Source of the DNA: Crambe crambe
Lineage: Eukaryota; Porifera; Demospongiae; Poecilosclerida; Crambeidae
DNA length: 64,000 nucleotides
Direction of reading: 5' to 3'
NCBI GenBank assembly: GCA_963924555.1
Contig: OZ004585.1
Span: 8,882,556 to 8,946,555 of the forward strand
A model generated the notes under the pieces. It searched no databases, was not told the DNA's origin, and was given only the letters and a program-made list of their open reading frames with translations. Positions 26,082 to 62,172 of this stretch are shown piece after piece (positions within the stretch are counted from its first letter, which is position 1; the number at the start of each line of letters is the position of its first letter). The position numbers and the translations under genes were made by a program.

Positions 26082-27105
26082 TCACTGAATACTACAACTG
26101 TGTCTCCTGCTGTTCTGTTTCTGTGGTGACCCTTTACCCACCTGTGAAAGTAGCACTTGGTACTTGCTTGGCAGGGAGGCATGGTCAGGCCACACCCCTT
26201 CCACAGATGGCAAGTGACCCCTTTGAAAGAAGTGGTGGGAGTGAATCTAAATTTGATGGTGGAGAACAGCAATCAATGTGGTTTTGAAATACATGTTTAC
26301 TCATCAGAGCCCAGTCAGACCACTTTTAGGGCTAAATTAACCTTTGACCCTTAATTTATTAAGTGCTAAGTGAACGCCAGTATAATAACAATAACACACT
26401 GTGTAACCACACCCACTTTTCCCACGTCCTGGCCTGGCCACTATAATTTTGCTCCCTATGGGCCTGCTCATTATAGGGGACTCAAAATAACACCTTCTTG
26501 ATTGAGGATGTGAATTTCCCTTCCTTGTTCCTATCAAAGATGACCTGTAGGACATCACTTATTTCTTGGTTCTTTATGGAATAGTAGTCGTCCTGACTCG
26601 GGACCAGTTGGCTTAGTTCATAGCCACAGGCCAACTCAAAGATCACATGACCTATGGTCAATGTCACATGACTTGTGGTTAATATCACGTGACTTATGGT
26701 CTGAGTACAGGTATAATATAAATGTCTCGACTATTGTACTTAACTCACCAAACATAATCACGTCCAAGTCTTCACTATCCACCTCACTCCACTCCTCACA
26801 GACACGAAATCTGTATCCTAGCAATGTGTTCTCATATCCCCCTAGTCGACACACGTCCCCCTCCACAAAGATGTTCCCAGTGTGCACATGTCCGAGAGGG
26901 GGGAATCCCTGCTCATAGAGGAAAAGGATAGCCTAGGGATGGAAAAAGATGCTGTGTATGACAACACTACATGCATGTGGACAGAATGTATCTCTTTAAT
27001 AAATACCTGAAGAATCTGTCTGCCATAGCTTGCCACTTTCCAAGCACTGATGATTGTCTTGCCATTCGTGCCATTCTGCCTCTTAGTGGGTGATGTCTAC
27101 ACCAT

Positions 27106-27173
<68 letters not shown>

Positions 27174-28640
27174 CTTTTGATGTGTGTGATGACGATGTCA
27201 ACCTCCTCTTACTTACCAAGGTAACTAGATCTTGAAGTGAATTCCTACTGGATTCAGACTGCACAACCATGACTTGTGTCTCCTCGGAATCAGGAAAGTA
27301 CTTGACCCCATGAATATTATGCAGTAGAGGATGCTAATAATCAAAACATTGTACCATTATAACCATCACAAAATGCTTTTATAAATCCTCTATTTAAAGT
27401 ACCACCTTGGCTTGGTACGTAGCACTAAAGTACTACCTTGGCTTGGTACTGGAAACAGTGGTTCTTACTTGCAGCCTGTGGAGTCTGTTGAGCGTCTTCA
27501 ACACTCCTGCAGTTGCCTCCATGGCTGACTTACTGTACTTGCCATATTTGGCTGACCACTTCTGAGTAGGTGACACCTACGTATGATTAGTAGGGCAACA
27601 TTCATAGAGTCCTTTCCTATTTACCTTATAAATGAGGTCTTTGAGGGAGCCCCTGCTCATTAGAGGTTGGACTGTCACCACGACATCTGGTTCAGGGAAG
27701 TACTGAACTTCCTCAATGCACTGGAGAAATGGATGCTGCAAAGGAGAGGTCAGAGGTTAGGAGATTGGAATCACACAGAGAATAATTCTTACTTTGAGAG
27801 TGTGAAATAACATATTGAGTGTGTTCACTCCCGTTTCATCGAGTTGGAGAGGACAATGAGAGGACAGAGGAACCTGCAACCAGGAAAATACAAATGAATG
27901 AGTGAGTGAGTGATAGATAGAGCGATCTTATTTATTCCCATACTAACTCTCTCACCACTGTCAACATCTTTGCTTGTTGTCCATCTCCAATCATCGTGTA
28001 CCAAAACTTTCCTCCTCGATAGCCTGGAGTGATGGACTCCATATTATGTTGTGTCACATCCATTTAGCCCCACCCACCTGATGGACATGTTTGTGTTGTC
28101 CGTACTAGCCCGTTACATACCTATGTCTTGCAGGCAGAGAAGACGACAATATTTTCCATTCGATCTGTCCACAAACAATGTAGCTACTCGATCAGCACTG
28201 GCTGCAAGGATAACTACAATTATATAGTCCGAACTTGCGTCAAGTGCAGTAGCTAGATCTTGCATTTAATTGTTTTTTGGTGCTGGAAGCCAGAGGAGTA
28301 TCTACCACTGGGCTGTTTTGTATGACTGGAGTATGGTCAGCAAAACGGTAATAGTAGGTCAAATTAATTTTTTGCCCACCAAAATTAATCATAAATCTTA
28401 GCTACTCCCCTGGAAGCTGGAACTTAGCAGCCACTTATTAACATTAATAAGAAACGATTATTATCCTTTTTTTGCACTGTTCCTACCTCTCTCCACTGCC
28501 TCCCTCTTCCTGCGCTGCAAGTAAGCCACTAGACTGGAGAGGAGGAAGGAGACAGAAGGCAAGACCAGGGAGGCCAGCCATTCCACTAAACGCACCAGCT
28601 GCAAGAGGCTCCACAGAAATGCAACTTCAGCATGTCCCAT
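26082..28640 (-). CDS. membrane-anchored PXK-like pseudokinase, PK1-A
   Basis: Predicted 438 aa. Exons: 28487-28640, 28121-28201, 27956-28023, 27793-27873, 27625-27735, 27469-27576, 27217-27333, 27007-27096, 26749-26932, 26494-26651 and 26082-26246; every junction keeps phase. Exon 1 encodes a hydrophobic anchor (WLASLVLPSVSFLLSSLVAY) followed by a basic stop (QRRKR). The kinase-like region resembles PXK/Slob: GSLKDLIYK, VASYGRQILQ, then GHVHTGNIFVEG in place of the HRD loop and LGGYENTLLG in place of DFG, and VIMFGHVIFELACG. The catalytic Asp of both loops is absent, so phosphotransfer is unlikely. The N-lobe pieces occur twice (HPFLQCIEE and HPLLHNIHG), as if a first domain lost its C-lobe and fused to a second. 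It is tail-to-tail with L3HYPDH. No experimental function known to me. Confidence 0.85.
27106..27168. repeat. (AG)n microsatellite in PK1-A intron
   Basis: About 30 AG dinucleotides. The homologous tract in unit 2 (35430-35479) is shorter. Comparable AG runs lie next to the last exon of PK2-A (29046-29105) and PK2-B (38664-38700), with lengths differing between duplicates. Confidence 0.9.
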
Positions 28641-28884: not shown

Positions 28885-29038
28885 TTACTGGAGTCTGCAG
28901 TCATTTTGTTCACTGAATTGCAGGGGTTTTCCCTTCGATGCTTTAACAAATAGTTTTCTCATGTCTCGAGTCAAAGATTTGTGGTCATGCTCCATGGATG
29001 GAATGGATGCATTTTGAAAGAATGGAAGTCTAATAATC

Positions 29039-29110
<72 letters not shown>

Positions 29111-31087
29111 ACATGCATGAAGTCATGCATATAGGAATTAAGCCACACCTCCTTAATAGAGGACATGAATCTCCCTGTGCTGTCCTGCTGAAAAATGACC
29201 TGTAGGATATCCTTTACTTCCTGGTCCCTAACTGACCCATAATCTATCTCTCCTGGGGTCAGATGACTCAATTCATACCCACAGGCCATCTCGAAGATCA
29301 AATGTCCTGAAATTTTAAATAATCGTAACCTCTTGAGCTGAAGTGACAAAGGAGTGACTTTTTACCAAACATGACAGTGTCAATATCCTCTACACAACTG
29401 AATGTATTGCAGAGGTTGTAGAGGCGTGTCCGGTATCCTAGCAACATATTCTCGTAGCCCCCTAGCATACAAACATCTCCCTCCACGAAGATATTTCCAG
29501 ACTGAATGTGTCCCACTGCTTGACAGCCTTGCTCATATAAGAACAATAGTTCCTGCACAAAGAAAGACACATAAGAATTACCTTACATATTAGTGGGCAT
29601 TATTTAGACCTGTGGATCCCTCAAGAGAAATTTCATATACATATTAATACCTGGAGTATCTGCCTTCCATAACTAGCCACCAAGTTGGCACTGAGCTGCC
29701 TCTTGCTGTAAGTCCGATATTTCTTCATCCAATCATTGGTGGGAGGCGTCTGGACGGGAGGGCCGGTGGGGGTTAATTATTAGTTAAACCTAGTATGTGT
29801 GTTCTTACTCCATAAATGAGGTCTTTGAGGGATCCCCCTTTCTTTAAGGGCTGGAGGATGATGATGTAGTTGGATCCAAGGTAGTGTTGTACTTGTTTTA
29901 TGGTTTCTATGGGGTGGAAGAAGGGAGGCTGGGGGGGGGGGGGGGGGGGGGGGGGGGGAGGGGAAGAGATTACATGAGATTCTGTAAGATGATAGATAAA
30001 AGCTACTCACCCTAAGAGCCAACAGCATCTTGTTAAGGGTATCCAGGCTTTTACCGTTCAACTTGAGGGCACACTTTCTTGAAACTGGAGCCTACGATGA
30101 AGACCTATTCATTATCCCTCTTCAGATTGCAATAGGGTAAAGATTCTCACCATGGTCAAAATTTTCTTCTCACCGTTCTCTCCTATCACTTGGAACCAAA
30201 ATTTCTGCAAACGGCTCCCTACACAGCACATCACATGATTGTCACATGATGACTACACCCCATTGATTAAAGTATTAAACATACCCATGTCAGGTAATGG
30301 TTGCAACTGGCTGTATGTTCCACTTGAGTCCTCCACGAATCTCTGTGCCATTTTCTCGGCAGCAACTACACCAGATATTAAATTCAAAAGGTTATTAGAT
30401 CTATTTCAGCTCAAATCTTGCTGCAGAGATTGTTCCAACCTTGGCCTGGTACCCATTGAAATCATACATACAGTTCCAGAATCTTTGCATCACTCACACT
30501 GGGTGCCCAAAGTCAAGGATGTGTAAATCACAGTAGAGTAAAAAAAAAAAAAAAAAAGTCATACTGTATAAGGAAGTTAATGTCCTATTTTGTTACAAAG
30601 ATTCTGCAATCTCCTGTATGTATGTATCATACTTTTGGAGAGAAAATTTGACCACAAATTCACCTTTTTCTGAATTTTGCTGGTCAAATCTATCATCGTC
30701 TCTTTTCTTTTTCTCTTCCTTCAGTATGACCGCGGTAAAGAGAGATCTAGCATAAAGAAAGTCTGTCACCCATTGCAGGAAGTACACTAGTTTCAGGGAG
30801 AGCTGAAGGGCACCATTCATTAGCAGTCCATTCTCAGGGTCTGCCCTCCTACGTCGGAGCAAGGAGACGAGGTATTTCAAGAAAAAGGAAGTCAGGAAGA
30901 AGCACTCATACACAATCCGCTGTACAATGGGGAAAGTGAGCAAGAAAAACGTCACCACGCCATAACGCAGCAGCCTGCTGATCGTCTTCACTTTTCCCCA
31001 GCTATGCTTTTCATTAATCTGGCGCAGCCAGCCCCGAGCGCCGAAGGCGCGAGGGTCTGGAGACACATAATACTTGGACTTATTCAT
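28885..31087 (-). CDS. membrane-anchored PXK-like pseudokinase, PK2-A
   Basis: Predicted 456 aa if the start at 31087 is used. Exons: 30664-31087, 30285-30365, 30151-30218, 30011-30091, 29809-29928, 29651-29749, 29366-29552, 29149-29306 and 28885-29037. Exon 1 encodes two or three hydrophobic segments (VVTFFLLTFPIVQRIVYECF, FFLTSFFLKYLV, LVYFLQWVTDFLY) separated by basic RRRR. The pseudokinase part has LPDMGSRLQKFWF, GSLKDLIYG, VASYGRQILQ, GHIQSGNIFVEG (HRD site), LGGYENMLLGYRTRLY (DFG site), GHLIFEMACGYEL and the C-terminal IIRLPFFQNA, matching SRLLQMPLFS in PXK. The native ATG seen in copies B and C (MISRLLRYG) is ACG here. The only upstream in-frame ATG lies in an inserted transposon (31015-31457). 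Expression of this copy is therefore uncertain. Confidence 0.8.
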
Positions 31088-31833: not shown

Positions 31834-33007
31834 TTACACTCTTACACTTCCAAGTCTTGAAAATTCAGCCTCGCTGGCAAAAAAGTCATGAAGTTTTATC
31901 TGGAAGAAGTGTAATAAATTCTACTGTCACACTATTCTAATCAGTGGAACATCACACAGTGATAAAGACACTACTGATAGTCCTTTTTCAGAGATGGAAT
32001 GGTCAAAATGCACTCTACAGGACTGGTGGACCATCATATATGTGTGTGTGATATTCCATGTGTCCATTCCATCTAAGTGTACCGTATGGGACAGGTTGGA
32101 CTACATGGGAAGGTATCGGTATACATGATGATATTATATCCATGTGTCCATTCCATCTAAGTGTATCATAGTGTGACTATCATATTATGTGGGAAAATAC
32201 ATTACCATCTTTTCATGTTCTTTTTGTGTTCCTCTTACCTGTTCTATGGTGTGTATGACTGATTCGTCATTGTTCCTCTCAAAAATGAAGCGAAGTGCCT
32301 CCTTACATTCACCATTCCTCACACTCTCAAGCTCAGACTTGCTTGGGAAAACACCTTTTAACTCCCTACCCGTACACATCTCGTAGATCATATGACCTGT
32401 GGGGCGGAGTCCATGTTTTATAAAGGTATTATTAATTTTACTCACCAAACATAATGACATCAATGCTCTGGAGGCAGCCCTCATCTTCAATTTTTCTGTA
32501 GAGGCGTGTCTTGTAGCCTAGCAACGAGTTTTCGTAGCCCCCCAATTGACAGGATAGGCCTTGAACATTGGTGGGTGGAGCATCGTGAAGAGCTTTCCAA
32601 TCAGAATAATTGACATAGATGTTGCCCGTGTGTATGTGGCCAATAAGGGGGAAATCCTGCTCATAAAGGTAAGTAACGGCCTGGGAGGGTGAGGAGGGAA
32701 AGAGAGAGGGATATAGGGAGGGAGAGAGGGGAGAGGTGAGGAAGGAAGGGGGGAAGAGGGTGCGGAGGGAGGAAGAAAGGAAGGGAGGGAGAGAATATGA
32801 AAGACGAGGGAGGGGAGGGGGAGGAGGAAGGGGAGAGGTGAGGAAGGAAGGGGGGAAGGGGGGAGGGGATGAGGAAGGGAGAAGGGGGAGGAGGAGGGTG
32901 CGGAGGGAAGAAGAGAGGGAGGGAGGGAGGGAGGGAGAGAATACGAAAGAGAGTGAAGGATTAGTTTTCTTGCGTCTTTCTATCAAATACCTCTAGAATC
33001 TTCCATC
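31834..33007 (-). pseudogene. truncated PXK-like pseudokinase, PK3-A
   Basis: The 3' end of PK3 only: exons 32991-33007 (cut by the duplication junction), 32446-32680, 32239-32396 and 31834-31899. The protein segments (GHIHTGNIYVN, LGGYENSLLGYKTRLY, GHMIYEMCTGREL, IKLHDFFAS) match the full gene at 43870-47019 essentially exactly. It has no promoter or 5' exons of its own. The intron at 32681-32990 holds a GGGA-rich low-complexity run that reads as Ser/Pro on the minus strand and Arg/Glu/Gly on the plus strand. Confidence 0.85.
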
Positions 33008-34435: not shown

Positions 34436-35428
34436 TCACTGAATACTACAACTGTGTCTCCTGCTGTTCTGTTTCTGTGGTGACCCTTTACCCACCTGTG
34501 AAAGTAGCACTTGGTACTTGCTTGGCAGGGAGGCATGGTCAGGCCACACCCCTTCCACAGATGGCAAGTGACCCCTTTGAAAGAAGTGGTGGGAGTGAAT
34601 CTAAATTTGATGGTGGAGAACAGCAATCAATGTGGTTTTGAAATACATGTTTACTCATCAGAGCCCAGTCAGACCACTTTTAGGGCTAAATTAACCTTTG
34701 ACCCTTAAGTTATTAAGTGCTAAGTGACCGCCAGTATAATAACAATAACACACTGTGTAACCACACCCACTTTGCCCACGTCCTGGCCTGGCCACTATAA
34801 TTTTGCTTCCTATGGGCCTGCTCATTATAGGGGACTCGAAATAATACCTTCTTGATCGAGGATGTGAATTTCCCTTCCTTGTTCCTATCAAAGATGACCT
34901 GTAGGACATCACTTATTTCTTGGTTCTTTACGGAATAGTAGTCGTCCTGACTCGGGACCAGTTGGCTTAGTTCATAGCCACAGGCCAACTCAAAGATCAC
35001 ATGTTAATATCACGTGACTTATGGTCTGAGTACAGGTATAATATAAATGTCTTGACTATTGTACTTAACTCACCAAACATAATCACGTCCAAGTCTTCAC
35101 TATCCACCTCACTCCACTCCTCACAGACACGAAATCTGTATCCTAGCAATGTGTTCTCATATCCCCCTAGTCAACACACGTCCCCCTCCACAAAGATGTT
35201 CCCAGTGTGCACATGTCCGAGAGGGGGGAATCCCTGCTCATAGAGGAAAAGGATAGCCTAGGGATGGAAAAAGATGCTGTGTATGACAACACTACATGCA
35301 TGTGGACAGAATGTATCTCTTTAATAAATACCTGAAGAATCTGTCTGCCATAGCTTGCCACTTTCCAAGCACTGATGGTTGTCTTGCCATTCGTGCCATT
35401 CTGCCTCTTAGTGGGTGATGTCTACACC

Positions 35429-35484
<56 letters not shown>

Positions 35485-38239
35485 CTTTTGATGTGTGTGA
35501 TGACGATGTCAACCTCCTCTTACTTACCAAGGTAACTAGATCTTGAAGTGAATTCCTACTGGATTCAGACTGCACAACCATGACTTGTGTCTCCTCGGAA
35601 TCAGGAAAGTACTTGACCCCATGAATATTATGCAGTAGAGGATGCTAATAATCAAAACATTGTACCATTATAACCACCACAAAATGCTTTTATAAATCCT
35701 CTATTTAAAGTACCACCTTGGCTTGGTACGTAGCACTAAAGTACTACCTTGGCTTGGTACTGGAAACAGTGGTTCTTACTTGCAGCCTGTGGAGTCTGTT
35801 GAGCGTCTTCAACACTCCTGCAGTTGCCTCCATGGCTGACTTGCTGTACTTGCCATATTTGGCCGACCACTTCCGAGTAGGTGACACCTACGTATGATTA
35901 GTAGGGCAACATTCATGATAGAGTCCTTTCCTATTTACCTTATAAATGAGGTCTTTGAGGGAGCCCCTGCTCATTAGAGGTTGGACTGTCACCACGACAT
36001 CTGGTTCAGGGAAGTACTGAACTTCCTCAATGCACTGGAGAAATGGATGCTGCAAAGGAGAGGTCAGAGGTTAGGAGATTGGAATCACACAGAGAATAAT
36101 TCTTACTTTGAGAGTGTGAAATAACATATTGAGTGTGTTCACTCCCGTTTCATCGAGTTGGAGAGGACAATGAGAGGACAGAGGAACCTGCAACCAGGAA
36201 AATACAAATGAATGAGTGAGTGAGTGATAGATAGAGCGATCTTATTTATTCCCATACTAACTCTCTCACCACTGTCAACATCTTTGCTTGTTGTCCATCT
36301 CCAATCATCGTGTACCAAAACTTTCCTCCTCGATAGCCTGGAGTGATGGACTCCATATTATGTTGTGTCACATCCATTTAGCCCCACCCACCTGATGGAC
36401 ATGTTTGTGTTGTCCGTACTAGCCCGTTACATACCTATGTCTTGCAGGCAGAGAAGACGACAATATTTTCCATTCGATCTGTCCACAAACAATGTAGCTA
36501 CTCGATCAGCACTGGCTGCAAGGATAACTACAATTATATAGTCCGAACTTGCGTCAAGTGCAGGCTAGCTAGATCCTAGTCTCGCGTGGCCAGACCCTTT
36601 ACCAACTGCAGCACGGATGTATTACATCATCCGCACGCAGAAGGAAGGGTCTGGTGTCAGCGTGTACTGGCTCTCGTTGCAGTGGAATGCAATTTACACC
36701 CACGTTCACACCACAAAACCATAAGAGTAAACTGCGCGCTATTATTATTGCATCTGGCTGCTTAGCTATGGAAAATTGTTTTTGCTGTGGAAAGTCTGTG
36801 GCCAGTGCCAATGAGAAGAAGAGAAGGAGACCCTTGTCAAGTCCTGACATATCAAGTGCACTGGAATGCTTTACTGCTCTGATGTCCAGGTTTCCTGAAG
36901 TGGACTGCACCAAGTTGCACACTGACCAACAATTTGCAGAGTGCACTGGCCATTCTTCCTAAGTTTCAGTCAGCACAAGTGGAACCAGGCATTGTAGCAA
37001 CCGATGGTGCTTCACCAGCACCCATAGTTCCTCAATGTAGTCCAAGCAAATCACCAGCTCTTACGGTGAGCTGATATAGTACAGCAGTACTTATAGATTA
37101 ACTGTATAATATCTCCAGGCCAAAATATTCTATCCTTCAAGGCCACAGACTTATATCCTTACACCTAGAAGTAGGAGAGTATATGTAAGCCACCAGGTTC
37201 TTCCTATACACATCAGTGCACAGCAACCTCCTCCACTGTGTGCCACAGAACAGTGATTCAGGGCTGATAAAAATCATCTGGAAATCCCCATTTTCTATCT
37301 TCATTCTTATTGTTGGAGTTGCTGACTGCTGGTCTGTTATATAAGTTGCAGTAATACCCATCCCAGAAACAGAAGCTACCTGGTCTTTCATCAAGGCACT
37401 AAGTGGTGATACCACCAAAATGATAGACTTCTTCTGTACCAATCGGAGCAGGTCAAGTACAGCCTGTTGGCAGGCACACAAATACATCCTTGCCACTGAT
37501 CAGCTGAAACACACTCTCCTCTTGTTCTTTCTTCAAGCCTAGCTACCATACATTTTACATCTGCAGATGCACTGTCTTGTAAAGAAGCCATCGCTTCATT
37601 CTACACCTGCTGAAAAAATAGCCCGGCCGGAATCGCCTACGTTATCGGTGCGCGTGAATATTATTAATGTGATAATAAAACCACACTCCCATAAGCAATA
37701 CACACTAAGTATTGAAGTTCACATTCCTGGGGAATGCAACGAAAGCCAGTACACGCTGACACCAGACCCTTCCTTCTGCGTGCGGATGATGTAATACATC
37801 CGTGCTGCAGTTGGTAAAGGGTCTGGTCACGCGAGACTAAGCTAGATCCTGCATTTAATTGTTTTTTGGTGCTGGAAGCCAGAGGAGTATCTACCACTGG
37901 GCTGTTTTGTATGACTGGAGTATGGTCAGCAAAACGGTAATGGTAGGTCAAATTAATTTTTTGCCCACCAAAATTAATCATAAATCTTAGCTACTCCCCT
38001 GGAAGCTGGAACTTAGCAGCCACTTATTAACATTAATAAGAAACGATTTTTTTCTTTTTTTTCCTTTTTTTTGCACTGTTCCTACCTCTCTCCACTGCCT
38101 CCCTCTTCCTGCGCTGCAAGTAAGCCACTAGACTGGAGAGGAGGAAGGAGACAGAAGGCAAGACCAGGGAGGCCAGCCATTCCACTAAACGCACCAGCTG
38201 CAAGAGGCTCCACAGAAATGCAACTTCAGCATGTCCCAT
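34436..38239 (-). pseudogene. PXK-like pseudokinase PK1-B (damaged duplicate)
   Basis: Duplicate of PK1-A with the same exon layout. It ends at 34436-34438, and exon 1 (ATG at 38237-38239) encodes the same hydrophobic anchor. Two changes break it. In the exon carrying the GHVHTGN and GGYEN motifs, the Arg codon of VCRLGGYEN is TGA (about 35170-35172). A 29 bp deletion near 35003 removes the acceptor of the next exon that is present at 26652-26657 in copy A. Intron 1 carries the 1.26 kb transposon 36577-37839, which by itself need not matter. Without correction it would give a truncated protein. Confidence 0.8.
36577..37839. mobile_element. TIR transposon with RecQ-like helicase remnant
   Basis: A 1,263 bp element with inverted ends of about 105 bp (TAGTCTCGCGTGGCCAGACC at left) and a perfect 10 bp target duplication AGCTAGATCC (36567-36576 and 37840-37849). 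Unit 1 has a single TAGCTAGATCT at the empty site. The plus strand (about 36769-36960) encodes a Cys-containing segment starting MENCFCCGKSVAS. The minus strand (about 37550-37137) encodes a RecQ-like helicase fragment: QLISGKDVFVCLPTG (start of Walker A), then a deletion, then ILVVSPLSALMKDQV and ISPESLF, ending before the DEAH box. It is a deletion derivative of a larger element. I could not assign a superfamily. Confidence 0.8.
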
Positions 38240-38659: not shown

Positions 38660-38704
<45 letters not shown>

Positions 38705-45864: not shown

Positions 45865-45909
<45 letters not shown>

Positions 45910-47317: not shown

Positions 47318-50300
47318 ATGATAACTTATAATTCGTCTCTTGCGGTTACACAACAGACAGAGGTGAGAGGATAGCACAGAAACTAGAATTCAATAATTCT
47401 GTCATTTTCTAGTGTGAATATCCATGGCCTATGCATGGAATATAACTAATCATTTATTTTCAGGCCATCATCTATAAACCTGCAACTCTTGGTCCAATTG
47501 TTGGTGGTGTTGTTGGTGGTGTAGCAGTGCTACTCATCATCTTCTTCGTCATTTTGGCTGTTTGTTGCAGATCATGCCGCAGACGCAAGCAAAGGGAAGA
47601 GGAAGAAATCCCACTGCAAGAGCTAGAGAAAAAGAAAGAAAAGAGGGAAAGAGAGGAAAGAGAAGAACGAGATAAGCAGAGGAAGATGCAGGAAAAGGAA
47701 GAAGCAGGTAACTAACCCAACTATGATTGAACTTAATAGCTACCACAATTAAATTTTAGAGCAGCCCTTAATCTAGCTATATGGGATCTGGAGGTACTGA
47801 GTTGGCAAGATTGATACATAGTCATTAACTCATAATACTCTAGGTTTTGTTGTGGAGATAGTCAAGAGGATGGGTGAAAGAAAATCGGAGGAGTATTTAA
47901 TCAATTTCAGGCGTCTTCCTGACTTAGGGAGTCGACTGCAAAAATACTGGTTTTCAGGGCATTGCAGGGATGGCAGTGAAGTCTTGGTAGCAGTAGTGAG
48001 TTCAAACTGTCGTTTAATTGTATGCTAGCTACCAGGAATTTGTACATTGTTACTCATATTACAGTCCAGGAATCAATGCTCAACCACAAACATTATTAGT
48101 TCCATTAGCTACAATTTCGTGGTTCATAGTGAGAAGTCCTGTGGCCACAAAATAAATAAGGGCCACTCCTACATTATTGCATTAGCTGGAGTCTTTCTGG
48201 GGAATTGAATGAACCCACCTGTCTCTGTTACTAATGGGCCCACAGTAGTGACTAATGCTTAGCCAGATACTCTGAGTTGTTATGCAAGCTTGTTGGCATA
48301 ATGTTCTTCTAATCCACAGGCTCCATTATCAAAGAAATGTCCCCTAAGGTTGGACGGACCAACACTGGAAGTCATCAACAATGTTCTCTTTCCAAGCATA
48401 CGGAAGGTACCTAGCTACTAGCCTCATACCCAGGCCCGCTAATTACTGATCAAATGACTCTTGACTTTCTTTTGGTCATAGCATCAATTCATTCAACCTC
48501 TTTACGAAGTAATTCATGACACCCGAACATTGCAAGTATTGACTGTACAGCCATTAATCAGCAGGGGTTCCCTCCGGGATCTCATATATCAGGTAAGCAA
48601 ATAAGATACATTAGAAAAAAGCTTCATCATGTGGCACACTATTACTTTAGACATCACCTCGTAATGATTGGTCGCAAAAATACACAAGTTCTGTTGGTGG
48701 TTTGCCAGCCGATAAAATTGCCTTATATGGCAAGCAAATCCTTCAGGCAATTCTTTTTCTGTACAAGCTGGGATTTCCCCATCTGGGTCACATACAAACT
48801 GGGAATGTTTTCATCGTCTCCAATGAGTGGTGCAAACTTGGCGGGTATGAAAACACGTTGCTTGGCTATAGAACACGCCTCTACCGCACCTGTGAACAGA
48901 ACGGCTGTATTGACACCATTGATACTATCATGTTTGGTAAAGATACCACAAGTGTTGTTAAGTACTACTGTCTACAGTAATTATGCAAAGCCCACTTATT
49001 AGCAAACCTTCTCTTATTTCAAGGGAACTTTTTTTCAGTTCAATTTTCAATTAGCAACCACTGCAATGCTTAATAGCAACATTTTTCTTAGGAGCAAAAG
49101 GGCTTTACAGGTTTGTACACTAATGACGATATAAATTGGCCTGCTAGGTCACTTACTGTATGAGATGGCCAGTGGCACGGAACTGCCTGCTGGCACTTTG
49201 GAACCAGAGCACCAACATTACGAAGGCATTGAAGACAATCTCAGAGACATCATTAAGTTCGTGTTCAGCAGAAAATTTGAAAGAGATCTTAAACCAGTGA
49301 GATCCTATAATACATCTCTACAGATATAACATTGTCATTATATCATCATTATAATGACTTAGATTATGAAGGACAAATTTTTTAGTGATATTCCAAGTAG
49401 TGGTGAATCAGTTCAGGTGACTACATGTACACAATTGTGATGGCATTAGGTGGTGGGCTCTTGATTACTTCAGATTGAGGGGACAAAAGAAGTGAAGAGA
49501 CTACTCAGTGATCTCTCCAGAACAGGTCCAGCAAGACAACCCAAACCAGCGGAGGAGACTTCTCCCACTGTAACTGCCAGCAAAGAAGAAGCCCAAAGAT
49601 ACAGTAACTACATATCTAATTTGTACTACTATTACTACTACTGTGAAATGACCACCAGAGACCACCTTACTTAATTAAAAGACCACTTGGCCATGTACTA
49701 ACAGTGGCATGTTAGCCTCCATTAAGAGACCACCTCAGTTCTTCAAAGACTACTTTTCTTAGCTGGTACATGGTCACTAAACGCAGTTATTAGCTATAAT
49801 TATATGATTGTATGATCTCTTATGATGTGATTTGAATAGTGCAGCTGTACTGTTGTGTTAACATTACTGGTTACTCTAATAATCAATGTTCTGATCTGTA
49901 ACAGTCGAGTACTTCTTGGAACATTCCAAGCCACTGCAGCTGGTGTCTCATCTACCAGATATCGGTAGGTCACTTAGCTACACAAATCAGTTATTAGTTC
50001 AGTAGTAATAATAACGAACCAATGTTATGCTTGGTGAACCATAGTATAAACTCTGGCATATTTGTGAGGTTTCAGTTGTAATTATGTGTATACCTTAAAA
50101 CAGGAAGGAGGCAGAGGAAATACTGGTCCAAGATCCGAGATAAAGAGCAGAATCAGATCAGGATTTTATCTATAGTGAGCCATGGACTTTATGGCTATAT
50201 AGCTTGTTAAAATTAATGTGGAGCATTGAGATAACACTAGCCTTTATACCTTTTTCCTGGGCATGAGGCTAGAGATAATAAAATTATATCACTTTGACAA

Positions 50301-52040
50301 CTGTATAAATCACGCAGGCCAAAGTCCCCGATAACTGTTCAATAGCTCTCAGCTCCAGCAACCTTGAAACAATGAATCGCTTCTTCAGTGAAATCAAGGT
50401 AGCTAGCTATTGCTGTAGTGAATTAAGTGTCTTTGCACACTACCATACCATACTCAATCTGATTATGCAGTTATTAATAATTGTGGACTTTGTTTGTTCC
50501 TTTGATAACAGCATCCTCACCTCTACAAGAAGATTGAGTTTCACTATGACCAGGAATCTCATCAGATACTGGCAATTCAACCGCACGCGGAGAAAGGCTC
50601 TCTCAGAGACCGTCTGTGGGGAATTGTAAGTTTTATCCACTAAGCTTTGTAAGTTTTGTCCTTTAATTTGCTCTCTTTCTACAATTCCACCTCCCACGAA
50701 TGCAGAAAGACCCACTGGCTGATTGGTCCAAAAAACGACACAGCACGAGCAATCCTTTGGGCATCAACAAAATCGCTCTCTATGGAAGACAAATCCTCGA
50801 AGTATGTATCATTGCTTCACTTTGTGATATAATTCTTGCTCCTCCCACTACGTATACCCCTAGGCTATTGGATTCTTGTATGAGCAAGGTTTTCCTCCTC
50901 TGGGGCACATCCACGTGGGTAACATCTTTGTTGGGGTGGGTGAAGGTGGGAAGGACATATGTTTGCTTGGAGGGTATGAAAACACACTGCTGGGCTTCCA
51001 ACCAAGTGACAGAGTCTTTGCCTACAAGGAGTACTCTTCCGCCATTGACTTAATGATGTTTGGTAAGTGTACATGTTGGAGTGAGTTACACAGTAGATCT
51101 AGTTGCTATCACTATCAATAAACTGCTCCATATGAGAATTGAGATTACAATGGAACCTTTGATAAAGGAACTCAACAAAGGACAATCTCATACTCTATAC
51201 AAAATAACCTCCAAAAGAGGACAACCTCTCTACAAAGGACAAAAGGAAGTGTGTCCATCATTCGGACGTACAGTTGATTTAGTAAAACTTGTAACAGAGT
51301 TTTGGACTTTTGTAGACCAAACTCTGGATGAAATGTGGTAACCTGTGATAACATTGTAATAGGATGCTGTTGCAAGTCTTATTAAATCAACTGTAATCTG
51401 TAGCTAATAGGGAAGAGCCAAGTTTCTTTAAAAGCTATAGCCATAGGTCTAGTAACTAGTTGGCTAAAGCAAAGTCTAAAGTAATAATGGCTAGCTTACC
51501 TTCCAGGTCATGTGATATTTGAGATGAGTACGGGAAGAGAGTTGGAGAATGAACTGCCTCAGGAAGGTGAGTATGAACTGTTGACGGGAGACAAGAAAAG
51601 CATTGTGGAGCTGCTCAAGTTCATCTTTGAAGTTGGTCACGGTGTCCACCATGATGCCATGCCACACCAAAGTGCACTCCAAAAGGTAGCTGGAGCTAAA
51701 GTTACATCTTTATCAGATATAGCATAGCTAATAATATTATATTACTCAAGCCATTACGTATCTTTTTTCAGGTCATAGATCATGATTTTTTTGGGAATGT
51801 GGTATATGAAGCATTTGATAGTGAACAACAGGTAACTCTATCATTAGCTATTCTTGTTAGCTAACTCTCTCTTATTGTGTGTGTCTCTGACAGGAGGAAT
51901 TGGAAGACCCAATGAAACAGCTGCTTGTGAAGGTTACCAAGAGGAAACGCAAAGGCCATCAGCTAACTAGGGCTTTAGGGAGAGTGAAGGTTCCTAGTAG
52001 TGTCAAGAAACTTTACTCAGAGATGAAATCAGTTCTATGA
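47318..52040 (+). CDS. single-pass protein with two tandem PXK-like pseudokinase domains, PK4
   Basis: Predicted 754 aa from 18 in-phase exons (47318-47362, 47464-47707, 47844-47995, 48320-48406, 48482-48592, 48651-48936, 49148-49296, 49363-49416, 49474-49603, 49905-49964, 50104-50174, 50318-50398, 50512-50625, 50706-50801, 50864-51062, 51507-51685, 51772-51831, 51894-52040). Short outside N-terminus (MITYNSSLAVTQQTE), TM helix at about 27-50 (GGVAVLLIIFFVILAVCC), a highly charged coiled-coil-like stretch (55-95), then domain 1 (about 100-376) and domain 2 (about 420-706). Domain 1 has HIQTGN at 260-265 and GGYEN at 277-281; domain 2 has HIHVGN at 575-580 and GGYEN near 596-600. Neither has HRD or DFG aspartates. 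Hinge motifs GSLRDLIYQ and GSLRDRLWG match PXK. A membrane-tethered scaffold is the simplest reading. Confidence 0.88.
51149..51250. repeat. pogo-type MITE fragment in PK4 intron
   Basis: AATGGAACCTTTGATAAAGG and CTCTACAAAGGACAAA words match the element family defined at 21945-22071. The right end is missing. Confidence 0.45.
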
Positions 52041-52277: not shown

Positions 52278-54669
52278 TCAGGACGTTGGATGCAGAAGTG
52301 GTTGAACCTTCTTCTTTATCCTCTGACCTACTTCTTTGTATTTTACATGTCCTTTTGTCCTGAACTCATTAAGAGTGTCATCTTGGTTGCGATGTTTCCC
52401 CTTCCTAACTTTCTCTAGGAGATATTTAACCCTCGCTGAGAGAGTTGAAGGTTGCAGCTGTAGAAGCATGAAGGTTGAAGTATATTGTTACTTATGAATC
52501 ACAAGTCAACTCACCTGAATTTGGTTCTGTGGTATCGAAGATAAAGAAGCAGACTTGAAGAATGGTAGCTCAAGAATCTACAGTATTATGATATGATCTA
52601 ATACAATCACAATAACCAACTAGCTCTATCATGTAACTTACATCACTGATGCTATGGCTGAATCCTGCAGCAAATACATACTGCAGTGCTTCCTTTAGCT
52701 CTGGTATTCTAATGGACTCATACTCTTCCATTGATGGAGTCAAAGTAGTGAGTTCTCTCATATAAATCATCTCATACAACACATGACCTGAAACAATAAT
52801 TAACAATGGTGAGCCATGCTAGCTATATATTTCTACATACCAAACATGGTGACATCTATAAACTCTTCTCCACAACTTGTGTATAGATCATAACGATGTG
52901 TCCTGTATCCTAGCAATGTGTTCTCATATCCCCCTAGTCGACACATGCCCCCCTCCACAAAGATGTTCCCAGTGTGCATATGTCCAAGAGGGGGAAACCC
53001 CAGTCCATACAAATACTTCATTGCCTACAGTATACAATGTGAATAAGTGAGACAGTTCTATGTATTCTCTTACTGTTAGAATCTGATGGCCATAGCTTGC
53101 AATTTGTTGCAGAGTTAGCCGGTTATGTCTTCCTCTTTTGATTGCAGTCATCTTACTCTCCCAACCATCCATAGGTTTAGTCTGGTAGATAAATTGTCAT
53201 TAGAAACTTGTGCTAACTATAGGATTAGTTCCATTCTACCCAATATATGAAATCCCTGAGGGAGCCCTCTTCCTGAAGAGGGTAGAGCATAGAGACCAGG
53301 TGATGTCCATTCACCTTCTCATACTCACATTTCACCAGTGGAAGGAGGAAGGGACACTGTACAATGAAGTAATGTGTCAGTGGAAGCAATACACACTAAA
53401 ATGTTACATTGCATCTTACAATACTATACATGTTATGAGCACACCTAATGCACACACCTTGGCAAGATTCTGAGTGAGTTCTGATAGAGCCTGAGAGGAA
53501 GTACTGAGGTATATGGGACATGTCTGGGGTATCTTGGTCTGTAAGAATGGTAAGGTGTCATTAAAATGTAAAATGTTGCTTTAAAATCATACAATAGTTT
53601 GTAGTTGAGTTGATCCTTCTTTGATCATCCAGATTCTCTCGCTCCTTCGCCCTATCATGCAAGAGTTATAAGAGATGTGGTCTAGTTAGCTAATTTTAAG
53701 TGTGCAATATTAATAATCACAGTGCAAACCTTACCTATCCGAGTTTCAAATGTGGATGGTACTTGGGTACAAAATATCTCCTTAGCAGCTGCTATGTTAT
53801 CGGGTGTTTTCCAGCTTTCAGTTGTCGGAATAGGAACTTTTTTATCCCTCACCCTTTCATTTCTTGTTTTCCTTTTCCCCACTACTTTATCTCTAACTTG
53901 TTTAAGTAAATCTTTAGCTTCAGAAGATGAAGCCTATAATTATTATTATAAAGTAAACCAGTTCTGCTATGAATGATTGAGCACTAACTTCAGATTCTGT
54001 TGGACTTGCATGTTGAGTGGCATTGAATTGTGGAATACTTGTAATCTAAATAAAAACATGTAGCTTTAGTAATAGCTATAAAGAGTGTAGCTACAGTGTA
54101 CTTAGGTTACCTCTCTCATCAGAACTACATGATCCTTTTTGCTTTTGCTAATATCAAAGATTCTTTTGAGAATTTCTCTCACTTCACCGTCCTCCACTTT
54201 CTGATAGTCCTCATCAGTAGGGAATACATGCCCAGGTTCAAACCCACATGCCATTTCAAATATCACATGACCTGAAAAAGTGATAGTATAGCCAGTTACT
54301 TCCTATTGCACTCACCAAACATAATTCCATCAATCTGTCTCAAACAGTCTTCTTGCTCAATGTCTCGGTAAAGGCGTGTCCTGTATCCTAGCAACACATT
54401 CTCATAGCCTCCTAGTTTAATGCCCTCTTTAGTGATGAAGATGTTTCCAGTGTGCACGTTACCCAGTGGAGGAAAACCAAGCTCATAAAGGTACAAAAAA
54501 GCCTACATCATTACAATATGATAGATAGTAGCTAGCCAATGGTTTCGATAGTAACACTAACCTCTGATAGCTGACACCCATAGTAAAAGACTTCTTTTTT
54601 CTTAAGTGGCGTTTTGTTCTTTTTATCCATTCCATATTTCTTGTCCCAATCTCTGTCAGGATTGGCATT
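52278..54669 (-). CDS. 5'-truncated double PXK-like pseudokinase, PK5
   Basis: Thirteen in-phase exons, from 5' to 3': 54562-54669, 54316-54502, 54111-54271, 53989-54045, 53735-53933, 53593-53651, 53458-53538, 53240-53356, 53074-53181, 52841-53024, 52642-52787, 52515-52577 and 52278-52457. They encode the end of a first pseudokinase domain (GNVHTGNIFI, LGGYENVLLGYRTRLY) and a complete second one (GRRSERIW, GSLRDFIY, IASYGHQIL, GHMHTGNIFV, LGGYENTLLG, GHVLYEM, ILELPFFK). All exons are paralogous to PK6 (56024 onwards), with equal lengths. Homology to PK6 stops at about 54779, where unrelated repeats begin, so the anchor, ectodomain and promoter are missing. It is probably a truncated duplicate. 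Frames remain open, so very recent truncation or use of a new promoter is possible. Confidence 0.75.
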
Positions 54670-56023: not shown

Positions 56024-59000
56024 TTAGGTCATCTTTATCTTCCATCTTGCTTCTTTGAGTTTTAGATGTCCTTTTGTCCTGAACTCATTAAGAGTGTCAG
56101 CTTGGTCTCGATGTTTCCCCTTCCTAACTTTCTCTAGGAGATATTTAACCCTTGCCGAGAGAGTTGAAGGCTGTAGAAGCATGAAGGTTAAAGCACCGTT
56201 ACTTATCATGAATCACAACTGACTCACCTGAATTGGGTTCTGTGGTGCTACAGGTAAAGAAGCAGACTTGAAGAAGGGTAGCTCAAGAATCTGTCATGAT
56301 ATAGAAAGGACCAAATATATAGAAGACAATCACTGTTTCATGCAACTTACATCACTGATGCTATGGCTGAATCCATCAGCAAATACATACTGCAGTGCTT
56401 CCTTTAACTCTGGTACTTTAATGGACTCATACTCTTCCTTTGATGGAGTCAAAGTGGTGAGTTCTCTCATATAAATCATCTCATATAACACGTGACCTGA
56501 AACAAATAAATCATTAACAATGGCAAGCCATGCTAGCTACTTAACTACCAAACATGATGACATCTATAAACTCTTTTCCACGACTTGAGTATAGATCATA
56601 GCGATGTGTCCTGTATCCTAGCAATGTGTTCTCATATCCCCCTAGTCGACACATGTCCCCCTCCACATAGATGTTCCCAGTGTGCACATGTCCAAGAGGG
56701 AGAAACCCCAGTCTACGCAAGAATTCCATTGCCTGCATAGAAGGGAACAGTGTAGCTAGATAAAGTGAGTGAGATAGTTCCTGTATTCTCTGACTCTTAG
56801 AATCTGGTGACCAAAGCTTGCAATTGGTATACATGTATATCCATCTTGTTTTCGTCCTTTGATAGCAGTCATCTTACTCTCCCAACCATCAATAGGTTTA
56901 GTCTGGTAGACAAACTGTCATTAGACTTGTGCTAACTACAGAATTAGTTCTATCCTACCCCATACATGACATCCCTGAGGGAGCCCTCTTCCTGAAGAGG
57001 GTAGAGCATGGAGACCAGGTGATGTCCATTCACCTTACTGTACTCACACTCCACCAGTGGAAGGAGGAAGGGACACTATATAATCATGTAATATTGCAAG
57101 CAATACACACTAAAATGTTACTGTTGTGAGCACACCTAATATACACACCTGGGCAAGATCCTGAGTGAGTTCTGATAGAGTCTGAAAGGAAGTACTGAGA
57201 TATATGGGACATGTCTGGGGTATCTTGGTCTGTACAGTAAGAACGGTAAGGTGTCATTAAAACAAAAAAATTGCTTTGAAATCATACAATAGTTTGAAGT
57301 TGAGTTGATCCTTCTTTGATCATCCAGATTCTCTCGCTCCTTCGTCCTATCATACAAGAATTATAAGATATGTAGTCTAGTTAGCTTATTTAAGGATGTA
57401 ATATTAATAATCACAGTGCAAACCTTACCTATCTGAGTTTCAAATGTGGATGGTACTTGGGTACAAAATATCTCCTTAGCAGCTGCTATGTTATCAGGTG
57501 TTTTCCAGCTTTCAGTTGTCGGAGTAGGAACCTTTTTATCTCTCTTCTTTTTCTTTCCAATTTTCTTTCCCCCCACTACTTTATCTCTAACTTGTTTAAG
57601 CAAATCATTAGCTCCAGAAGATAGTGCCTATAATTATTATTAAACCAGTTCTGATATGGAATGAATGAATGATGAAGCACTAACTTCAGATTCTGTTGGA
57701 CTTGCATGTTGAATGGCAATGAATTGTGGAATATGCATAATCTATATAAAAACATGTAGCTTTAGTAATAGCTATAAAGAGTGTAGCTACATGCAGTGTA
57801 TGTTTAAGTTACCTCTCTCATCAGAGCTATGTAATCCTTCTTGCTTGTGCTGATAGCAAAAATTCTTCTGAGAATTTCTCTCACTTCATCATCCTCCACT
57901 TTCTGATAGTCCTCATCAGTAGGGAATACACGCTCAGGTTCAAACCCACATGTCATTTCAAATATCGCATGACCTGAAAAGTGCCACCAGTATAATTGTA
58001 CTAGGACAAATCCCCATATTGCACTCACCAAACATAATTCCATCAATCTGTCTCAAGCAGTCTTCTTGCTCAATGTCTTGGTAAAGGCGTGTCCTGTATC
58101 CTAGCAACACATTCTCATAGCCTCCTAGTTTAATGCCCTCTTTAGTGATGAAGATGTTTCCAGTGTGCACGTTACCCAGTGGAGGGAAACCAAGCTCATA
58201 AAGGTACAAGAATGCCTACATCATTACAATATGATAGATAGTAGCTAGCCAATGGTTTCGAAACACTAACCTCTGATAGCTGACACCCATACTCAAAGAT
58301 TTCTTTTTTCTTAAGTGGCTTTTTGTTCTTTTTATCTATTCCATATTTCTTGTCCCAATCTCTGTCAGGATTGGCATTCTATTATGTGCATGCAGTGTGA
58401 GTATGCCAGTCCACATCATGCAATGAATTAAGCACTTGTGTGATTTGCTGTGGGACACATGATTATATAGCTAAAGGTGTGGCTACCTTGTTTAGCATGT
58501 CTCTCAATGATCCTTTCTTACTGTAAAGTTGGACAATGAATATACCATCATCAGTGACTTCTATCTTCAGTATAGGATGGATGTGATGATGCTGGATACA
58601 TAAACTTAATTCATAATACTGCATAAACTATCTGAGTTAAAGAGCTTACCTGGCCAACTTTGTTCAGAATTTCATCTATCTTTTTCTGTATTTCAGAATC
58701 CAGTTCAAAAGGACATTTCTTTGATATTGGAGACTGCAATAAAAGTCAAGGATGCAAGTTTAGTGGGAAGGGGCTAATGTAGAGAGAGCACAGAGCATAC
58801 CTGTGTCACTAAAACATCTTTTTCGGAGCTTTTCTTCTTTCCTTTGCACCAATGTTTCTGTAGTCGACATCCTGCATTATGAAATCATGTATTATAATTG
58901 TGCATGCACATATGTATGACCATGTAACTTACCTAGGTAAGCATCACACTGATATTCACTAGGGATCAGATCATAGTCCTTAGAATCCTCAAAGAATTTA

Positions 59001-62000
59001 CAGCAATGGTCAGCAGCTGACCCTATTATAGATAATTTTTATGTAGCAGTAGATAACTAGCTATGATGTTATTTCTTACTCCTTTCAACAGATACTTCTC
59101 TTTGAGCCATTGCTCTTAGTTCTTTCTGAGCATCACTTGTTGGCAAATGGTGATACTGATTTCCTTCAAAACATTATATTGGTTGACTAGTACTTAATTT
59201 GTATTATCAAATGATAATACCTCTCTTCTTATATTCGCAACAACAACAGCAGCAGCAGACAACTGCTATTGAACCCAATACGACTGCAATGAATAGGAGG
59301 AGTGAACAAGAACAGATAAACAGATCTATTCCATTTTCACAAACTGCATAGTATCTATGAATCTTGCAAATATGCAAATCAAATATTCTGAATTTATCAT
59401 ACATATGATCTCATACATACATACATACATATTATGACCGAACTCATTGGCATCATTTGCAAGTAGCATGGCCAGTAATAATAAATTGTAGTTGATCTGA
59501 CAAGTTGATGACATATGGCATTGAATTTGAACTGCCTACTTCCTTTTATTGCAATAGTGTCACATCAACTGGAACAATTATTAATGGAGCTATTAGCATG
59601 CTCATGCTATGGCATACAGGTTCGCATAAACTATAGTGACTTCTGGTGGTATTATTACACATATTATGGTATACTAATCATTTTAATCTCTAGATTCTGA
59701 AAAGAATCTATGAAAATTCTCCTCAGCTTGGCCTATAGACAAATTTATATGTAGAGATGTTAGCTATTTACTTTGGTCATTTTCTCCTTGGCTAGAATTT
59801 CTCCTTGACGATTTCAAACAATCAGCTAAATTTTTCATCTCAAACATTTTCCCACCTTCCACTGAACCTGGAAGTAATAAAGACACCACATGGCTTTATA
59901 CAGTAAACTGTCTCTAAGTTATTCACACGGGACAATCAGACGTATAATCAGACCCAAGGGATTATGGGTCTGACTAGCATATAATATATAGACAACAACT
60001 TCACTATAATTTTCATTACCATTCGGTGTACCTGTCCCAACACTCTGATATCCTCCTAAAATGGGATAAAAATACTATAACTGAAATGTAAATTGCAGCA
60101 TTGATCACATGTTTTACTGCGACAGCAAGAATGAAGTCTTGTACAATGACATAAGCAGCAAATCACCACTACCAGCAGCAACATCACCACAGCTGCGACT
60201 GCTGCACCACCTATAACATAACACTACAAGAAGAAATAATTATGACAATAAATGATATTGTGTCATGCCCAGCCCAAAGAAGCCGCAGCTCAAACTTTAA
60301 ATAGCATAAAGTTGGAGTGTGCTACAACCCACCCACGCACTGTGCTTTAACTCACCCACGCAGGGCAAGGGCACAGCACCCTAGTTGCGTTGGGCGGTGA
60401 CCTAGCAGGGCAGCTAGGAGCAAACTGGCATGCAAAACACTAGTGGTGGGCGATATTGATACCAAATATCGATACCTCACTGATGGAACCAAGTATCAGT
60501 ATCGAAATATCAATTAGGCGGGTATCGACCTTATCATGTGACAGTGCAAAGTGCAGAGTACAGTCTATCTAGCGGGTCCCTATCTAGCAGCTGAACAAAC
60601 TTTTTATCAATCCACCACCATTTAGTATCGTATCATTACAGAATCAATATCACTGTTTTTGTGAGAAAAGTACTTGGTATCATATTGTTACAAAAAAGCT
60701 AGTATCGCCCACTACTACAAAACACCAGCCTGTGCTGTGAGACAGCTTGGAAGTTCTGCCTTTTATGCTGGCTACAATCTGAAAAGCTTGTTGGGTTTGA
60801 ACGTGGAATGTGGTCAATGAATATCATTATAAACGTGCACCGTGGTCAATAAATTCCATGTTTCAAACCCAACAAGCTTTTCTGAGAGTGGCTAGTATAA
60901 AAGACAGAACATTCTAGAGTGAGCTGGTGTTTTGCGCACCGCCTTCTTTGATCAGACACAAAATACTTGTATCCCTCATGCTCGGAGTATCCGGATTTAA
61001 AGCTCTTGGCCCTGGGGGGGGGGCACTGCGCGCCCTTGGGCCTCGAGCTTTAAATTGGATACATCCCTCACTCGGGATATAACTATTACATACGAATGTT
61101 GATCTAATCTATGGACTATGTATTCCTTATGTGTATGATAAATACTTGTTCCATATAACTGACTAGAACTCTATTAGTTAGATTGACCATATCATAGCTG
61201 AATACCTTTGGGTCCACATGATGCCATACTTCATCACAAGGTACTGATTCATTAATACGACAAAAATCCATTAATTTGCTTGGAATGGAAATATCACAAC
61301 CTATTAAAGAAAAAAAATATCATTGGCCAAGGTCCAGTTACACACAGAAGCAATCAAAAAGTGATTGTGCAAATATTATCTTATAGCTATGTTAGTCTGG
61401 TGGTCATGGAGCTATATAAGGGATTTTCTTTATGCTTGCAAGCAGCTGAAGATCTTCTTGCTGTACCATTGATCTTTAGATTGTTAGCTAGGACATCATA
61501 TAGCTATGTACTAGAACTTAGACCTGGTATCATGCATGCTTATTGAACTTTGACCTTGATATATCTATACTTATACATCTCATTAACACAAGCTTGCTTG
61601 GTTTGCTCACCTATGAGTTTACCAATTACCTGATGGAGGAGTCATTTCACTTGTGGTTTCATTAGTGGATTCACTGGTAGCCGTAACCATTTCACTTGTG
61701 GTTTCAATAGTGGATTCACTGGTAGCCGTAACCACTTCACTTGTGGTTTCATTAGTGGATTCACTGGTAGCCGTAACCATTTCACTTGTGGTTTCAATAG
61801 TGGATTCACTGGTAGCCGTAACCATTTCACTTGTGGTTTCATTAGTGGATTCACTGGTAGCCGTAACCATTTCACTTGTGGTTTCATTAGTGGATTCACT
61901 GGTGGCCGTAACCATTTCACTTGTGGTTTCATTAGTGGATTCACTGGTAGCCGTAACCATTTCACTTGTGGTTTCATTAGTGGATTCACTGGTAGCCGTA

Positions 62001-62172
62001 ACCATTTCACTTGTGGTTTCATTAGTGGATTCACTGGTAGCCATAACCATTTCACTTGTGGTTTCATTAGTGGATTCACTGGTAGCCGTAACCATTTCAC
62101 TTGTGGTTTCATCACTGTTAACCTCACTCACTTCACTCCATGAGTTGTGATTATTATTCTTGAAGATAGTAC
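56024..62172 (-). CDS. mucin-stalk, transmembrane, double PXK-like pseudokinase, PK6
   Basis: 5' end not found. Exons in order: 61630-62172 (ectodomain: ten 15-residue Ser/Thr repeats), 60118-60210 (TM, AAVAAVVMLLLVVVICCLCH), 60020-60055, 59772-59867, 59221-59283, 59080-59163, 58933-59022, 58801-58871, 58650-58733, 58487-58591, 58271-58378, 58029-58215, 57813-57973, 57685-57741, 57429-57627, 57288-57346, 57149-57229, 56959-57075, 56795-56902, 56549-56732, 56351-56496, 56228-56290 and 56024-56170. Phases match throughout, including mucin exon to TM exon. Domain 1: GCRLQKHW, GSLRDMLNK, GNVHTGNIFI, LGGYENVLLG. Domain 2: GRRSERIW, GSLRDVMYG, GHVHTGNIYV, LGGYENTLLG, ILELPFFKS. HRD and DFG aspartates are absent. 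Linkage of the mucin exon to the kinase exons rests on phase and position. A further Cys-bearing exon at 61206-61300 (CDISIPSKLMDFCRI, VPCDEVW) fits only in another combination. Confidence 0.78.
59284..59343 (-). other. possible alternative 5' extension of a PK6 exon
   Basis: The exon 59221-59283 has two usable acceptors in the same phase (before TCGTATTGG and before TTTGTGAAAATGG). The longer form adds CENGIDLFICSCSLLLFIAV and creates a second hydrophobic helix running into seven consecutive cysteines. Which acceptor is used cannot be told from sequence. Confidence 0.4.
60441..60717. mobile_element. hAT-type MITE
   Basis: A 277 bp element. Ends TAGTGGTGGGCGATA and the complementary TATCGCCCACTACTA; perfect 8 bp target duplication CAAAACAC (60433-60440 and 60718-60725). 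The terminal sequence and 8 bp duplication are typical of hAT elements. It lies in the large PK6 intron, inside the left end of an older palindromic element that runs to about 60938 (CAAAACACCAGC... and inverted GCTGGTGTTTTG). Confidence 0.88.
61650..62113. repeat. 45 bp coding minisatellite (15-residue mucin repeat)
   Basis: Ten tandem 45 bp units within one PK6 exon encode ETTSEMVTATSESTN with few changes (Met/Val, Asn/Ile). The repeat is open in several frames on both strands because the unit length is a multiple of three and lacks stops. The Ser/Thr-rich frame, flanked by splice sites in phase with the TM exon, is the meaningful one. Predicted to be densely O-glycosylated. Confidence 0.85.

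Follow-up and report, generated by a model that had tools for sequence, protein, structure and literature searches.

What are the kinase-like genes that stand in a row in the genome of the sponge Crambe crambe, and are they still PXK genes? We analysed 64,000 nucleotides of contig OZ004585.1 (assembly GCA_963924555.1, forward-strand positions 8,882,556 to 8,946,555; hereafter the window, in whose coordinates features are given), where a first-pass annotation had proposed a cluster of PXK/Slob-like pseudokinases. The cluster is real. Twelve such domains (A, A', B, B', C, C', D, E, F, G, H and I) lie in the window, their 12 HTGN...GGYEN-type catalytic-loop exons spread over 26.7–58.2 kb on both strands, with alignment scores far above those of shuffled sequence. 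Judged from sequence, it is fairly probable that they belong to a receptor-like, membrane-anchored and non-catalytic branch of the Slob/PXK kinases that has been amplified in tandem. Three things went unnoticed at first pass: that some genes carry two kinase-like domains in series, that signal-peptide and ectodomain exons are present, and how far the array reaches.

Tandem two-domain genes

Gene models were built with a purpose-written spliced protein-to-DNA aligner, using as protein query P0001, an unnamed protein of 742 residues. Across six window regions the true strand scored 379–1333, compared with 54–74 for the top-scoring of 15 Markov shuffles made from each region and 44–74 for the opposite strand; chance homology was rejected on these scores (shuffles and opposite strand ≤74). 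The first-pass annotation listed at least six distinct genes or remnants (PK1–PK6), but a set of six independent genes did not survive: in spliced alignment D+E and H+I are single genes, each with a transmembrane (TM) segment and two tandem pseudokinase domains, F+G is a two-domain gene truncated at its 5' end, and A, B and C are duplicated as A', B' and C'. The models are as follows.

47464..51953, + strand: gene D+E (TM segment, pseudokinase 1, pseudokinase 2); 17 exons, 16 introns, zero frameshifts or stops
47464..47707, + strand: D+E transmembrane/juxtamembrane exon; acceptor picked by eye; hydropathy 3.21
47844..49416, + strand: D+E pseudokinase domain 1 (D); clusters with P0001 domain 1
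49905..51831, + strand: D+E pseudokinase domain 2 (E); clusters with P0001 domain 2
56123..59296, − strand: gene H+I (TM segment 59296-59221, pseudokinase 1 (I), pseudokinase 2 (H)); zero frameshifts or stops
52293..54663, − strand: G+F, two-domain copy truncated at its 5' side, where the anchor and the domain 1 N-lobe are missing; spliced alignment
26494..28160, − strand: A, single pseudokinase domain; approximate ends; putative anchor open reading frame (ORF) 28652-28464
34844..36475, − strand: A', copy of A (95.8%) carrying an in-frame stop; ends from duplication offset
28924..31087, − strand: B, one pseudokinase domain plus a long 5' ORF of hydrophobic character, whose best segment (1.59) is slightly under cut-off
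38513..40606, − strand: B', ~96% duplicate of B; low end from duplication offset
31838..32680, − strand: C, truncated duplicate of C' without N-lobe; domain model
43874..45955, − strand: C', one pseudokinase domain; exons further upstream (~47018-46857) may encode an N-terminal anchor, under the hydropathy cut-off

The D+E alignment covers P0001 residues 23–741 over 47491–51953 (score 1333, shuffles ≤74); the 5' end of the gene was not found, and the start of its TM exon was set at 47464. P0001 is itself a TM protein with two pseudokinase domains in one ORF, co-linear with D+E, and is probably derived from a transcript, because its contig measures 2317 bases while D+E has 16 introns. The conserved exon lengths reported at first pass recur (184/187, 158/161 and 81 nt) but are not universal, D having a 286-nt fused exon and C' a 235-nt exon. 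Segmental duplicates in the window share 95.8% (A/A'), 96.2% (B/B') and 98.3% (C/C') identity, and could stem from uncollapsed assembly haplotypes.

Anchors were called by hydropathy over 19 residues with a cut-off of 1.6. A membrane anchor on every gene, as first claimed, holds clearly for D+E (maximum 3.21) and H+I (2.82) and marginally for A (1.86), but not for B (1.59, just under) or the C' candidate (1.47), and F+G has lost the anchor part. Besides D+E and H+I, a hydrophobic segment above 1.6 is present in 13 of 22 other array models.

Two side observations concern these loci. A repeat pair (54778-54931 and 55051-55194, 93.5% identical), mobile-element-like in character, sits at the 5' break of G+F. 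The hydrophobic 5' exon of B occurs a third time at 42030-42449 (− strand); tblastn found no kinase-like catalytic-loop exon between it and B'.

The array continues outside the window. With D as query, the assembly yielded 55 matches at E ≤ 0.001 (one exon counting as one match), of which 49 fall on contig C8, and tblastn on fetched stretches gave 52 places, of which the 42 long ones were modelled as domains and 10 short or non-array ones left out. Thirty-six of the 42 modelled domains fall at C8:8.86–9.07 Mb, ~100–300 kb from the end of the 9.17-Mb contig; the other six comprise two at C8:8.00 Mb, two at C8:8.69–8.71 Mb and single copies on C20 and C1, the latter broken. Eleven loci are paired (two-domain), with a best-scoring model free of frameshifts and stops in nine and carrying three and one frameshifts in the remaining two.

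Loss of catalytic residues on a probable kinase fold

The pseudokinase assignment made at first pass is supported by the catalytic residues. The aspartate of HRD is absent from all 40 aligned array domains (H in 31, N in 9), and that of DFG from 39 of 40 (G in 39), the lone aspartate belonging to a copy with three frameshifts; the catalytic-loop asparagine is retained in 40/40. A VAIK-type lysine is unrecognisable in first and single domains, and most second domains have a nearby lysine whose alignment is uncertain. We predict from these substitutions that the array domains are pseudokinases that have lost catalysis. A motif G-x-R-x-x-[KR]-x-W is present in each of the 35 domains with letters at that place (K in 26, R in 9). 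A presumed parallel between its lysine (G-x-R-x-x-K-x-W) and that of WNK was considered and is not claimed; phosphotyrosine docking at the conserved GYEN, a conjecture that we also considered, is likewise not claimed.

Kinship with the kinase fold emerges at profile level. A family profile built without PXK matches solved WNK1 kinases (E 3.9e-5 for the whole sequence, 0.0015 for the best stretch); the 201 matched positions start around helix C/strand 4 and run through the rest of the C-lobe, leaving the glycine loop outside. A profile including PXK matches solved kinases at E 2.4e-10. An NCBIfam scan of four relatives yielded nothing relevant. Two kinase-type domains per chain are also found in JAK and GCN2, dual-domain kinases named in PMC1420674; in the array, however, both domains are without catalytic residues and the protein is membrane-anchored.

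A probable relationship closer to Slob than to PXK

Little work has been done on the kinase-like proteins Slob and PXK (MONaKA), which are known from neurons and endocytosis. Slob binds the Slowpoke channel, where it acts in the fly, and 14-3-3; PXK acts at the Na,K-ATPase. A database search with D found P0001 as best match (44% identity, E 1.3e-125), the slowpoke-binding protein of Anabrus (3.9e-35), a Bulinus hypothetical protein not named Slob (1.5e-32), a Dreissena slowpoke-binding-like protein (1.6e-31) and, last of the five matches, Gigantopelta PXK (2.2e-16). A profile search recovered P0001 and two further unnamed proteins. Seven relatives were obtained with s161, a member bearing an immunoglobulin (Ig) domain, among them P0008 (unnamed), an octocoral slowpoke-binding-like protein (3.6e-35) and P0009, labelled PXK-like by its source yet with a TM segment and no PX match.

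Slob-type proteins (Anabrus, Dreissena, Dendronephthya and Bulinus) resemble the array in a kinase-like domain ~33–35% identical, in having no PX domain, in a residue other than Asp at the DFG Asp and in an N-terminal hydrophobic segment, which is present in all four examined (three named Slob). The first-pass view that no such animal family had been described was overstated, because these three Slob proteins and the Bulinus protein already combine absence of PX with such a segment. They differ from the array in having one domain only, and no obvious signal peptide or Ig domain in those examined, whereas the array has two-domain copies; the Bulinus and Dreissena proteins also end in a WH2 motif, which we do not take as defining the Slob family because two of the four lack it. 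According to the Dictyostelium kinome paper, all SLOB orthologues 'appear to be cytoplasmic', and Dictyostelium SLOB2 has a predicted N-terminal anchor (PMC1420674); the hydropathy of the four animal proteins conflicts with the 'cytoplasmic' statement. SLOB mediates KCa (calcium-activated potassium) conductance changes in fly neurons, as described in PMC11906214.

PXK shares with the array a related kinase-like domain and a common catalytic-loop pattern, GH.HAGN. It differs in architecture: in Gigantopelta PXK, PX and WH2 are present and a hydrophobic segment is absent, whereas the array has no PX and mostly does have such a segment. The absence of PX from the cluster agrees with the first-pass annotation, the PX part of the PXK query giving no C8 match at that search's sensitivity, and matches only on C5, C9 and C17. 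Two PXK genes lie elsewhere in the genome, one at C5:219684-222380 (aligning with P0005 residues 17–560 including the PX region, score 1012) and one at C9:6040078-6044798 (P0005 residues 3–471 including the PX region, score 748). The first-pass reading thereby withstands the refutation by PX-bearing orthologues that it had itself named.

A tree of 45 rows was computed (A', B' and the C1 copy were dropped from 48, and two of the 42 domains, shorter than 180 residues, never entered). It sets PXK apart (100/100), gathers three Slob-type proteins in one group (94/89) and the array in another (99/99), and places P0001 domain 1 with D (99/98) and P0001 domain 2 with E (100/99). A single clade of first domains is compatible with the approximately unbiased test (p-AU 0.47); all second domains lie on one side of a branch at 76/80, which does not in itself demonstrate a single origin. 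Search scores, the missing PX and the TM segment point towards the array being nearer Slob than PXK. The residue at the DFG Asp is Gly in the array and in Slob-type proteins and Asp in this genome's PXKs, but is a weak character, because Gigantopelta PXK has Glu there.

Three relatives on other contigs (P0011, P0012 and P0013) carry an insert of ~170–300 residues between HTGN and CRLGGYEN within one ORF; P0011 and P0012 are 46% identical over 190 residues comprising the insert end and the part that follows.

Signal-peptide and ectodomain exons

Upstream of H+I on the minus strand lies a series of signal-peptide, ectodomain-type and TM exons, with signal peptides here and below called by hydropathy and by eye.

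~64069-63979 (63979..64000 in the window), − strand: signal-peptide exon; the full exon passes the window end
61630..62172, − strand: ectodomain-type exon, Ser/Thr-rich 15-residue repeats from 45-nt units
61146..61301, − strand: small Cys-containing ectodomain exon (Cys module)
60095..60210, − strand: second TM exon; end approximate

The repeat ending at 62172, where the range noted at first pass stops, is an ectodomain-type exon, and the signal-peptide exon starts at 64069, outside the window. The exons upstream could instead represent the 5' portion of a different gene that has been lost, because H+I has its own TM exon at 59296. Comparable exons recur in the array. Similar signal-peptide exons lie upstream of copies g97, g126 and g80, 1 to 8 kb from their TM exons. 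The Cys module has eight matches genome-wide, all at C8:8.94–9.03 Mb, seven of them 0.1 to 1 kb upstream of the TM exon of H+I (its upstream TM exon), g65, g80, g97, g106, g126 or g147.

Three single-domain neighbours at C8:9.03–9.05 Mb (s152, s156 and s161) read, in order, as a signal peptide, one Ig exon, a TM segment and a pseudokinase domain, with matching exon phases. The I-set model exceeds its Pfam cut-off in s152 (28.2 versus 23.7 bits) and stays below it in s156 and s161; the best PDB match of the s152 Ig domain is Robo1 (2.8e-10 over 47 residues), and the Ig exon has three matches genome-wide, namely these genes. Their order of signal peptide, Ig, TM and kinase-like domain is the layout of receptor tyrosine kinases with an Ig ectodomain, from which they differ in that the array domains lack catalytic residues and D falls under the Pfam kinase cut-off. 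New here are the signal-peptide, Ser/Thr-repeat and Cys-module exons before two-domain copies and the Ig domain in three single-domain neighbours; searches of the open literature gave no account of such receptors.

Selection and apparent homogenisation of the 3' side

Ratios of non-synonymous to synonymous substitution rates (dN/dS) were estimated by NG86, with local values per 30-codon block. The median is 0.54 for second domains (54 of 55 pairs, one of them exceeding 1, from 11 of 12 F-type loci) and 0.46 for first domains (36 pairs from 9 of 11 G-type loci, none above 1), with blocks ranging over 0.31–1.70 and 0.18–1.23, respectively. Overall purifying selection on the coding sequence is shown by these estimates. 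Mean dS of first domains drops from 1.09 at the N-lobe to ~0.12–0.14 in the C-lobe, which suggests that gene conversion may have homogenised the 3' side. Between the three Ig genes, dN is 0.57–0.59 in the Ig exon versus 0.23–0.29 in the kinase-like domain; dS is high in the two regions alike (~1.6–1.9 in the Ig exon).

A probable receptor-like array and its alternatives

A membrane scaffold or receptor is the likely role of these proteins, to judge from their lost catalytic residues and, in some, the parts predicted to lie outside the cell. They would not phosphorylate. Short, variable ectodomains may sense or hold something at the cell surface, while a fixed pseudokinase platform, paired in the two-domain forms, would recruit partners, by analogy with fly Slob and PXK; copies are gained and lost, and apparently homogenised on their 3' side. 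Such an array, in which some members have Ig or mucin-like ectodomains and others two dead kinase domains in series, would show the Slob/PXK family in use as cell-surface receptors in an animal lineage, and would offer a natural set of variants with which to study the function of a catalytically dead kinase platform at the membrane. It is rather unlikely, though conceivable, that the array forms an immune or allorecognition receptor complex, in which dozens of surface proteins with diverging 5' halves (Ig, Ser/Thr-repeat and Cys-module ectodomains) and homogenised 3' halves would signal via paired dead kinases. If so, it would be a receptor class with tandem pseudokinases in place of catalytic kinases as the intracellular signalling platform.

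Several observations weigh against a receptor-like, non-catalytic family. Database comparison upheld the Slob and PXK relatives and, by profile, WNK1, but D alone stays below the cut-off of the Pfam kinase models (13.9 versus 23.1 bits) and found no kinase in a single-sequence search of the PDB. Slobs have been reported as possibly active, in PMC1420674 and in the title of a reference. Rooted as it is on PXK, the tree is silent on the relative closeness of the array to Slob and to PXK, and a scan of D, s161 and P0001 found no WH2, unlike two mollusc relatives. The gene models depend on our own spliced aligner, and nine of the 22 further array models have no strong hydrophobic segment, some of them starting too far 3'. 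One of eight second-domain blocks (1.70, with low dS) and the last of nine first-domain blocks (1.23) exceed a dN/dS of 1.

The ectodomains add further points of this kind. Their exons are linked to the array by position, phase and recurrence, and the signal-peptide exons of g97 and g126 lie 4 to 8 kb from the TM exon. Two of the eight Cys-module matches contain a stop codon; the s156 TM exon stays in frame only if one base is shifted within a T run, from sequencing error or decay. To the eye, P0001, P0006 and P0008 have no obvious signal peptide. None of the seven s161 relatives covers the Ig part (≤55% of the query), so the Ig architecture stands on three genes in one genome.

A tenable if improbable alternative is that the array consists of ordinary tandemly duplicated Slob relatives, TM scaffolds with short ectodomains that would modulate ion channels or pumps, with no receptor function and with Ig and Ser/Thr-repeat exons as late, minor additions. 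A TM segment with a kinase-like domain is common to insect, mollusc and octocoral Slob-type proteins, N-termini are short in P0001, P0006, P0008 and P0009, and the s161 search matches include no Ig-bearing relative elsewhere. Yet signal-peptide and ectodomain exons recur before several copies, with Ig and Cys-module exons confined to the array within the genome, the tandem double domain is absent from the Slob-type proteins examined, and the Ig exon is constrained (its dN being well under its dS).

We consider it very unlikely that the array is largely decaying, with most copies functionless pseudogenes: a stop interrupts A', truncation affects C and G+F, and frameshifts occur in C8b_66780, C8b_68916 and the C1 copy, but 38 of the 42 domain models have neither frameshift nor stop, and median dN/dS is ~0.5 and as low as 0.18 in one first-domain block. 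That these are fragments of ordinary PXK genes minus their PX exons is scarcely credible: they share a superfamily with PXK and a PXK query matches the array, but the two PXK genes aligning across PX sit elsewhere, a hydrophobic segment replaces PX in the array, and Gly at the DFG Asp is common to the array and Slob-type proteins (Gigantopelta PXK also lacks this Asp; the genome's own PXKs keep it).

Other features of the window

Rfam at its gathering threshold gave no match in the window. A 105-nt inverted repeat (36577-36681 and 37735-37839, 98% complementary) and a Cys-rich ORF of 158 residues without a Pfam match (41405-41878, + strand) lie within the span of the array. Two long ORFs at 16672-20309 (− strand) have no Pfam match, one containing a short Gly-X-Y stretch that we take to be collagen-like. 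Tandem thiolase copies (acetyl-CoA acetyltransferase-like) occupy 3506-15163 (− strand); each of five ORFs tested matches Pfam Thiolase_N or Thiolase_C.

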